Shown here: positions 33,522 through 36,291 of the stretch, piece by piece
How the letters are laid out: every line of letters begins with the position of its first letter
Numbering within the stretch: position 1 is the first letter of the stretch
Source of the DNA: Methyloprofundus sp.
Lineage (GTDB): Bacteria > Pseudomonadota > Gammaproteobacteria > Methylococcales > Methylomonadaceae
Reading direction: 5' to 3'
DNA length: 64,000 nt
Assembly (NCBI GenBank): GCA_012960135.1
Contig: DUBW01000045.1
Span: 33,312-97,311, forward strand
Translations under genes and position numbers: made by a program
Notes under the pieces: model-generated
The model's database searches: none
What the model saw: only the letters and a program-made list of their open reading frames with translations
What the model was told of the DNA's origin: nothing

Positions 33522-33552
33522 AATAGCCCGGTTTTAAATAAACCGAGCTATT
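33522..33552. terminator. Rho-independent-type hairpin downstream of the HvfA-like gene
   Basis: aatagcccggttttaaataaaccgagctatt, one mismatch; A-rich on the 5' side, i.e. U-rich on minus-strand transcripts. Confidence 0.7.
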
Positions 33553-33623: not shown

Positions 33624-34205
33624 TTATTCACCAGACGCTTTTTCAGGTGAGATCATGTCGCCACAGCTACCTTCCTTTCCTTTCATCATGTCGCCGCAAG
33701 ATCCTTCCATGCCTTTTTCCATTTCGCTATCTTGCATCATGCCTCCACACATGCCTTCGCCGCATTTACCTTCCTTGTCTTTACCCATTTCCATTCCCTG
33801 CGTGGGCTCAGCTGAGGTTTTTTTGTTACCCCAGCCAGTTGAGCTTACAGCGTAACCTTTATTTTTTGTCTGTTTGGATGCGGCCTTTTCCTGCATATCG
33901 CCACAGGCACCCTCTTTGCCTTTCATCATCGCGCCACAGGAATTTTCAAAGCCTTTTTTCATTTTGCCATTGTCCATCATACTGCCGCATGAACCTTCAC
34001 CACAAGCCGCTTCTTTCTGCTTGTCCATTTTCATTTTAGAGCCGCATTTCATCTCGCCGGCTTTATCTGACTGTGCAAGTTGCATATAACCGCTACTAAG
34101 CTCGTTCATGGCAAATGGGTTAATTTCTGCATTAACGGCATTTGCTGCGAAAGTTGAAGCAACTGCTGAACCGATAGTTGTTAAAGTTAATGTTGTTTTT
34201 TTCAT
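33624..34205 (-). CDS. HvfA-like secreted Cys-Gly-rich protein (putative oxazolone/thioamide-type RiPP metallophore precursor)
   Basis: Signal peptide to ...NAVNA, then NPFAMNELSSGYMQLA, then 9 Cys each followed by Gly in EGxCG/GSCG contexts, Met/Lys/Glu-rich. Confidence 0.8.
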   Translation of the reverse strand: MKKTTLTLTTIGSAVASTFAANAVNAEINPFAMNELSSGYMQLAQSDKAGEMKCGSKMKMDKQKEAACGEGSCGSMMDNGKMKKGFENSCGAMMKGKEGACGDMQEKAASKQTKNKGYAVSSTGWGNKKTSAEPTQGMEMGKDKEGKCGEGMCGGMMQDSEMEKGMEGSCGDMMKGKEGSCGDMISPEKASGE

Positions 34206-34249
34206 GTCATCCTCGATATTTTAAAGATTAGTTAATGTGTATTGATATG

Positions 34250-35125
34250 TTAGCCATTGGCAATAAGCTGTTGCATGGCTATGCCCATATTGGAAGGCGA
34301 GTTGACCACTTCCACGCCTGCCGCTTTTAACGCGGCAACCTTACCTTCTGCTGTACCTTTACCACCGGTGACTATAGCTCCGGCGTGGCCCATGCGCTTA
34401 CCAGCAGGGGCAGTTAAGCCGGTAATATAGCCAACCACTGGTTTAGTCACATGCTTTTTAATATATTCAGCAGCCTCTTCTTCTTCACTGCCACCGATTT
34501 CACCCACCATAATAATACCCTGAGTCTGTTCATCGGCCTGAAAGCGGCTAATGACATCAATAAAGTTCATGCCGTGGATTGGGTCGCCCCCAATACCTAC
34601 ACAGGTGCTTTGCCCCAGCCCCTGATTGGTAGTTTGGTGAACTGCTTCATAGGTTAATGTCCCGGAGCGAGAAACAATGCCAATACCGCCAGGCATGTGA
34701 ATACTACCCGGCATAATACCTATTTTACAGGCTTCAGGGGTAATGATACCCGGACAGTTGGGTCCAATCAGCAGCGCATCAGTTTCCGCCATCGCCGCTT
34801 TAACGCGCAACATATGTAATACCGGAATCCCTTCTGTAATACAGATAATAAGCTTAATGCCGGCGTCAACTGCTTCTAAAATTGCATCGGCAGCAAAAAA
34901 GGGTGGCACATAAATAACACTTGCATCGGCCTGGGTAACAGTATATGCCTGCCTCACGGTATTGTACACCGGCAAACCTAAATGGTCGGAGCCACCTCGT
35001 CCTGGGGTTACGCCGGCAACAAGCTTGGTGCCATAAGCCAAAGCCTGACGGGCATGAAAAGTACCTTGTTTACCGGTAAACCCCTGGCAAATGACTTTAG
35101 TGTTCTGGTCAACTAAGATACTCAT
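34250..35125 (-). CDS. sucD: Succinate-CoA ligase alpha subunit
   Basis: [29 protein letters not shown]...[10 protein letters not shown]...GHAGAIV. Confidence 0.95.
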
Positions 35126-36291
35126 AGCCGTGCTCCTGCAAGGCTAACAGCTTGTTCGGCGGCATGATCCAGGTTATCAGCAGCAATGATGTTAGGCGCC
35201 ACACCTTGTAATAGTGCACGGCCTTCTTCGGCGTGAGTTCCTTCCAGCCGGACGATAACAGGCAAGTCTGTTTGTATTTGTTTTAGTGCGTCGAGAATGC
35301 CTTGTGCAATCACATCGCAATGCACAATTCCGCCAAATATATTAACCAACACTGCCTGTACATTTTTGTCTGAGACTATCAGCTTAAAAGCCTCGGTGAC
35401 TTTTTCTGTGGTCGTTCCACCCCCGACATCCAGGAAGTTAGCAGGCGTTCCGCCTTTCAGTTTGACCAGGTCCATAGTCGCCATCGCGAGCCCTGCGCCA
35501 TTAACCATACAGCCAATATTGCCATTCAAGGTAATATAGCTCAGGTCAAATTGCTTGGCCTTATTTTCTTTTTCATCTTCTTGTTCCGTATCACGCAAAG
35601 CAATGATGTCTTTATGCAGCGCCAGCGCATTATCATCAAAGTTAATTTTTGCATCCAGTGCAACAATACTATCGTCTGCTATTTCTACCAATGGATTAAT
35701 TTCTATCTGGCTGGCATCTTTATCGACTAATAGATTAATCATCCCTGACATGACATCATGTAAGGCTTTGATTTGCTCGCCTTGCAAGGAGAGAGCAAAG
35801 GCTATTTCCCGGCACTGATAAAACTGGAGCCCAGCGGCGGGATGAATAAATACGCTGATGATTTTTTCAGGACTTTCTTCGGCAACCGCTTCGATATCCA
35901 TTCCACCAGCGGCAGAAGCAATAAAGCAGAGTTTTTCCTCATGTCGATCTACCAGTAAGCTCAAATAAAATTCGCGTTTAATCGGAGAGGTTTTTTCAAC
36001 TAAAACTGAATTAATCGGTAGACCTGTTGCATCGGTTTGCTTTGTTACCAGACGTTGCCCCAGCATAGCTGCCGTATACTGGCTTGCCTCTTCAGCCGTT
36101 TTTGCAATTTTAACACCGCCTACCTTGCCACGCCCACCCGCATGAACCTGAGCTTTTATTGCCCAACTATCACCTGCTAAAGTTTGTGCCGCAACCACTG
36201 CATCTGCTGCAGTAGTAACGACCATACTTTCGGGTACTGGTATCAGGTAATCCCTAAATAATTGTTTAGCCTGAAATTCATGAATATTCAT
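35122..36291 (-). CDS. sucC: Succinate-CoA ligase beta subunit (ADP-forming)
   Basis: [20 protein letters not shown]...[14 protein letters not shown]...[14 protein letters not shown]...[16 protein letters not shown]. Confidence 0.95.

Follow-up and report, generated by a model that had tools for sequence, protein, structure and literature searches.

An HvfA-like precursor gene behind sucCD in Methyloprofundus and its possible maturation in trans by a distant HvfB-HvfC pair

Introduction

The oxazolin precursor HvfA of nontypeable Haemophilus influenzae is encoded in the hvf operon together with hvfB, hvfC and a DoxX-like gene, and it carries a signal peptide and repeated Cys-Gly sites arranged as AEGKCGEGKCG (PMC13419390). 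HvfB and HvfC turn the Cys of Cys-Gly into a copper-binding 5-thiooxazole (PMC13419390, PMC13097082); HvfC is required, the product has been identified as the 5-thiooxazole, and activity is poor when the signal peptide is missing (PMC13419390). An enzyme pair of the same type acts in the fontiphorin system FonABC and the captophorins, whose genes are clustered and whose repeats read EGKCG (PMC13097082). For the Cys-Gly repeat precursors of the Buf_EGKCG/oxazolin class, a survey of MNIO enzymes reports stand-alone precursors and as many as four EGKCG precursors in a genome; the stand-alone ones, in its view, might be modified by enzymes encoded at another locus or might be unmodified (PMC12452194).

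The DNA analyzed here, called the window throughout, is a 64-kb stretch (C45:33312-97311) of a 2.5-Mb, 92-contig draft genome of Methyloprofundus sp., and genome-wide statements rest on searches of that assembly. Methyloprofundus are copper-dependent methane oxidizers for which cultivation has been described (PMC8788690), and PmoA of the particulate methane monooxygenase was found in this genome. The window encodes a precursor that resembles H. influenzae HvfA in its putative signal peptide and its repeated Cys-Gly sites, with HvfB/HvfC-type proteins encoded in the same genome, but it differs in lying 41 kb from those enzyme genes with no DoxX gene, and in having repeats of about 40 residues with ENSCG and EGACG contexts (PMC13419390). 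With the fontiphorins and captophorins it shares the type of enzyme pair and the Gly after each Cys, and would by extension share the 5-thiooxazole and copper binding (PMC13097082).

Results

The precursor, hereafter type A, is a 193-residue protein encoded at 33624-34205 on the minus strand from an ATG start codon. The earlier note had described this ORF, its sequence and nine cysteines each followed by Gly, and translation reproduced that description exactly: Cys residues 54, 68, 73, 90, 101, 148, 153, 170 and 181 all precede Gly. On composition alone (30 Gly in 193 residues), the chance that nine cysteines would all fall in Cys-Gly is about 5e-8; because the protein is repetitive, conservation of the pattern across 15 species is better evidence for it than this figure. 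Inspection and alignment point to a putative Sec signal peptide at residues 1-26 (34128-34205, minus strand), with KK, a hydrophobic core and a predicted cut at VNA|E, conserved in 15 species. It is followed by the conserved segment NPFAMNELSSGYMQ at residues 29-42 (34080-34121, minus strand), a candidate recognition segment, and C54, the first Cys-Gly site, sits between this segment and the first of two aligned repeat copies of about 40 residues. These copies, at residues 64-104 (33894-34016, minus strand) and 144-184 (33654-33776, minus strand), hold four Cys-Gly sites each and are separated by a linker that includes GYAVSSTGWG and is kept, as GYAVSSTGWGNKK at residues 117-129 (33819-33857, minus strand), in most type A proteins. 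Across the nine sites, the residue before Cys is K, A, S or M. The protein contains 22 Met in addition to its nine Cys, AlphaFold2 run with 15 sequences predicts disorder outside the signal helix and some short stretches (mean pLDDT 43, pTM 0.16), and a Pfam search with the 193 residues returned no match.

The assignment of this protein as HvfA-type, made in the earlier note, holds for the broad class and fails for HvfA in the strict sense. The protein passes the KCGExKCG_twice model NF050137 (36.6 bits, cut-off 19.5), has multiple Cys-Gly sites and comes from a genome with an MNIO and a DUF2063 partner, all consistent with the broad HvfA-type/Buf_EGKCG class; it scores below the strict HvfA equivalog NF050188 (19.3 bits, cut-off 95) and does not adjoin hvfB and hvfC with DoxX. 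NF050188 is narrow, and the miss says little, because precursors encoded beside their maturase (cis precursors) miss it too: two scored 25.8 and 54.4 bits, the former being a canonical one from a sister genus. The two other precursors of this genome (types B and C, below) also fall below it. The first Buf_EGKCG type of the survey has a 17-residue two-motif repeat and a beta-helix, whereas type A has a repeat of about 40 residues and is predicted to be disordered (PMC12452194). Identity with a Buf1 bufferin was rejected, as the precursor has no DUF2282 by Pfam; no DUF2282 bufferin was found in the genus. Methanobactin was likewise rejected, the MNIO of this genome matching HvfB and giving only 62 bits against 325 with the MbnB model.

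The gene lies 44 bases behind sucD (34250-35125, minus strand; ORF and NCBIfam), which in turn follows sucC (35122-36291, minus strand; ORF and synteny). The gap contains GAGGA, a ribosome-binding-site-like sequence (34210-34214, minus strand), no terminator was seen in it, and a hairpin resembling a Rho-independent terminator lies 71 bases past the precursor stop (33522-33552, minus strand). In 12 of 16 species the type A gene lies 3' of sucCD in the same orientation, at gaps of 44-268 bases; none of the 12 gaps examined contains a terminator, most hold a GAGG-like ribosome-binding site, and a terminator-like hairpin follows the precursor in six of the sucCD-linked species, the window included. 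These features suggest that sucC, sucD and the precursor are co-transcribed. NCBIfam agrees with the earlier note that sucD and gor are the flanking genes; sucCD is the conserved neighbor and gor an incidental downstream one, and functional coupling to gor was rejected since it is not beside the type A gene in other species. In one species (G001), the type A gene (L072:3815-4972) adjoins a transposase-like ORF and not sucCD, a hint of the way it may have relocated.

Searches bore out the statement that the window has no DUF692, DUF2063 or DoxX gene. A whole-genome search for MNIO genes, envisaged in the earlier note, found a single hvfB at C45:25111-25893, followed by the sole DUF2063 gene of the genome, hvfC; the MNIO gene is on the same contig as the precursor, 7.4 kb past the left edge of the window. 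The MNIO passes the HvfB model NF003818 (438 bits, cut-off 360) and does not reach the BufB cut-off (275 bits, cut-off 310), and its partner passes the HvfC model NF050145 (291 bits, cut-off 142). The pair is flanked by aroG and an asparaginase-like gene. That note had also allowed for an MNIO operon elsewhere with a complete precursor of its own; the MNIO locus is precursor-free, no precursor-pattern ORF being found in any frame of a 19-kb stretch extending at least 7 kb to each side of the pair.

Type A had been called an orphan; it has no maturase beside it, but it is not alone, since the genome holds three HvfA-like genes (types A, B and C), all unlinked to hvfBC. Type B, on contig C37, has 119 residues with four Cys-Gly sites and one KCAGN site invariant across species, and is found 3' of mgtE in 16 genomes at gaps of 21-73 bases with no terminator between. 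Type C, on contig C11, has 95 residues and a conserved Cys at a lipobox-like position. Orphans similar to type B, which has this invariant Cys-Ala among its Cys-Gly sites (L013:7288-7647, alignment A3), are present in several other genera of the family.

All three types share a PFxxxxLxxG[Y/F]M-like segment near the N-terminus, which is also present in 56 of 63 precursors adjoining an MNIO in other genera. Because HvfBC activity suffers when the N-terminal signal peptide is absent (PMC13419390), we infer that this segment may take part in recognition; FonBC, however, tolerated single alanine changes before the core, which speaks against a strict role (PMC13097082). Type A of this genome (P0001) scores 85-102 bits against six cis precursors of sister genera, 44 against its own type B and 24 against its own type C, and on these alignments it is the ortholog of the precursor that adjoins hvfBC in those genera.

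Relatives were collected through the maturase alignment; a scan with the window protein alone gave none, its patterns falling on variable residues. Among 18 species of the genus, type A occurs in 16, type B in 16 and type C in 7, most gaps falling in incomplete drafts, and hvfBC occurs in 17. An intact cis precursor was found in just one of those 17 (G004); coverage of the upstream side of hvfBC, the usual place of the precursor, reached about 4 kb in each, while in a few species a contig end truncated the downstream side. Two species form a supported clade with G004, so that a single clade holds intact, broken and erased states: in G016 the cis precursor is broken, with a remnant beside hvfBC at L126:3587-3881, and in G017 it is gone with both flanks kept (L127, upstream of hvfB). 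A cis precursor is likewise missing beside hvfBC in the near-closed genome G009. Median dN/dS over pairs with dS below 2 is about 0.14 for type A, 0.15 for type B and 0.05 for hvfB; both the precursors and the maturase are under purifying selection and are functional genes. A maturase strongly constrained yet devoid of a cis substrate implies substrates in trans.

Two species (G002 and G010; L114:2167-2565 and L091:4872-5270) carry a second, distant MNIO with 59% identity to hvfB, accompanied by an HvfC-like partner of 30% identity and a precursor of its own in which GKCG and GGCN motifs alternate.

Outside Methyloprofundus, in an evenly drawn sample of the family, a precursor lies within 2.5 kb of the MNIO in 52 of 55 MNIO-bearing genomes. 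Unlinked precursors, many of type B, occur in 15 of those genomes as well, so dispersal predates the genus. The genomes are related and relocation amounts to one or a few events, so these counts are not independent. Another genus (g22) has precursors separate from its MNIO, one tandem pair near bamA, fabZ and lpxD and another precursor near secretion genes (L212:1876-2610 and L214:3805-4317).

Discussion

The earlier note had offered three fates for type A: maturation in trans, no modification, or action as a metal buffer on its own. The presence of one HvfB-HvfC pair lacking a precursor, together with the orthology to cis precursors, favors the first, and we consider it likely that a single HvfBC pair serves several scattered precursors by modifying them in trans, with type A expected to be modified, exported and able to bind copper. 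The type A precursor would be made alongside succinyl-CoA synthetase from a sucC-sucD-precursor transcript, and before export the HvfB-HvfC pair would recognize the signal peptide and the NPFxxxELxxGYM segment and convert several of the nine Cys-Gly sites into 5-thiooxazoles. Sec would export the modified protein, and copper would be bound in the periplasm, probably being buffered there or supplied to the copper-needing methane monooxygenase. The same HvfBC would also serve the two other orphans, namely the one that follows mgtE and the free-standing one, which may be lipid-anchored. The data show the sequence, the family matches, the genome layout, the conservation and the selection; the co-transcription, the trans modification, the 5-thiooxazole chemistry and the copper function are inferred. 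FonBC was reported to accept any of K, A, R and T ahead of the Cys and to require Gly or Ala behind it (PMC13097082). All nine type A sites supply that Gly, but the Ser-Cys or Met-Cys context of five of them is not among the variants reported in the accessible text of that study. The genome also lacks DoxX, which normally belongs to the operon, and this counts against trans maturation by HvfBC.

The most serious alternative, which we regard as unlikely, is that the protein no longer needs HvfBC and serves in its unmodified form as a thiol or metal buffer, rich in Met and Cys, in the periplasm. Its 22 Met and nine Cys and its predicted disorder would suit such a role, and two near-complete genomes of the family (G023 and G067, 98% and 94% complete) encode HvfA-like precursors with no MNIO match, as does a genome with type B (G014); given these cases, all in draft assemblies, some precursors may work unmodified. 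In type A, however, every Cys is kept in the Cys-Gly context required of an MNIO substrate, the N-terminal segment seen in cis substrates is retained, and strong selection preserves hvfBC in a genome that offers it no other substrate. Considerably less probable is that just one of the three precursors, for instance type B or C, is the real HvfBC substrate and type A a side product or diverged spare. The closest matches to EGKCGEGKCG do lie at the ends of types B and C, and type A falls below the strict HvfA model, but so do the other two types and the cis precursors, and type A aligns as the ortholog of the canonical cis substrate and is kept under purifying selection in 16 of 18 species. That the gene is decaying, or that a misjoined contig in a 92-contig draft makes the orphan state an artifact, is contradicted by the sucCD-precursor order in 12 independently assembled species, by a dN/dS of about 0.14 and by the same hvfBC without a cis precursor in near-closed G009, and can be given almost no weight.

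Trans maturation by one HvfBC pair resembles the prochlorosins, where a single tolerant maturase, ProcM, serves ProcA precursors that are scattered singly across the genome and share a conserved leader; the prochlorosins differ in their unrelated enzyme, their lanthionine chemistry and their far larger number of precursors (PMC10783134). The likeness concerns one maturase serving precursors encoded at several loci. To our knowledge, no prochlorosin has a Sec signal peptide.

Stand-alone precursors and their possible modification in trans have been noted before; what is new is the genus-wide split of precursors from their maturase. On sequence comparison, the addition is a genus that has lost the clustered precursor and has the ortholog of that precursor fixed in a housekeeping operon. 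The accessible text of the MNIO survey reports no genus that combines a lost cis precursor with orphans in fixed housekeeping operons (PMC12452194), and our literature search, incomplete in its coverage, found no publication that deals with HvfA-type precursors of Methyloprofundus. A broader reading, which we put forward tentatively and think somewhat doubtful, is that a copper-stress RiPP has turned into a housekeeping one: the clustered precursor would have been lost in favor of three separately wired precursors (with sucCD, with mgtE, and free-standing and lipoprotein-like), all matured in trans by HvfBC, with products that would differ in abundance and location and would either deliver copper to methane monooxygenase or buffer it.

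The survey leaves it a question whether MNIO precursors encoded far from the enzyme are modified in trans or are unmodified (PMC12452194). This genome makes testing clean, because the recognizable precursors are all unlinked, here and in most of the genus, a single maturase pair is encoded, and the cis copy is found intact, broken and erased within one clade. Mining for clusters only in the vicinity of the enzyme would overlook the three substrates altogether. The hosts are methane oxidizers, mussel symbionts among them, whose key enzyme is copper-dependent.
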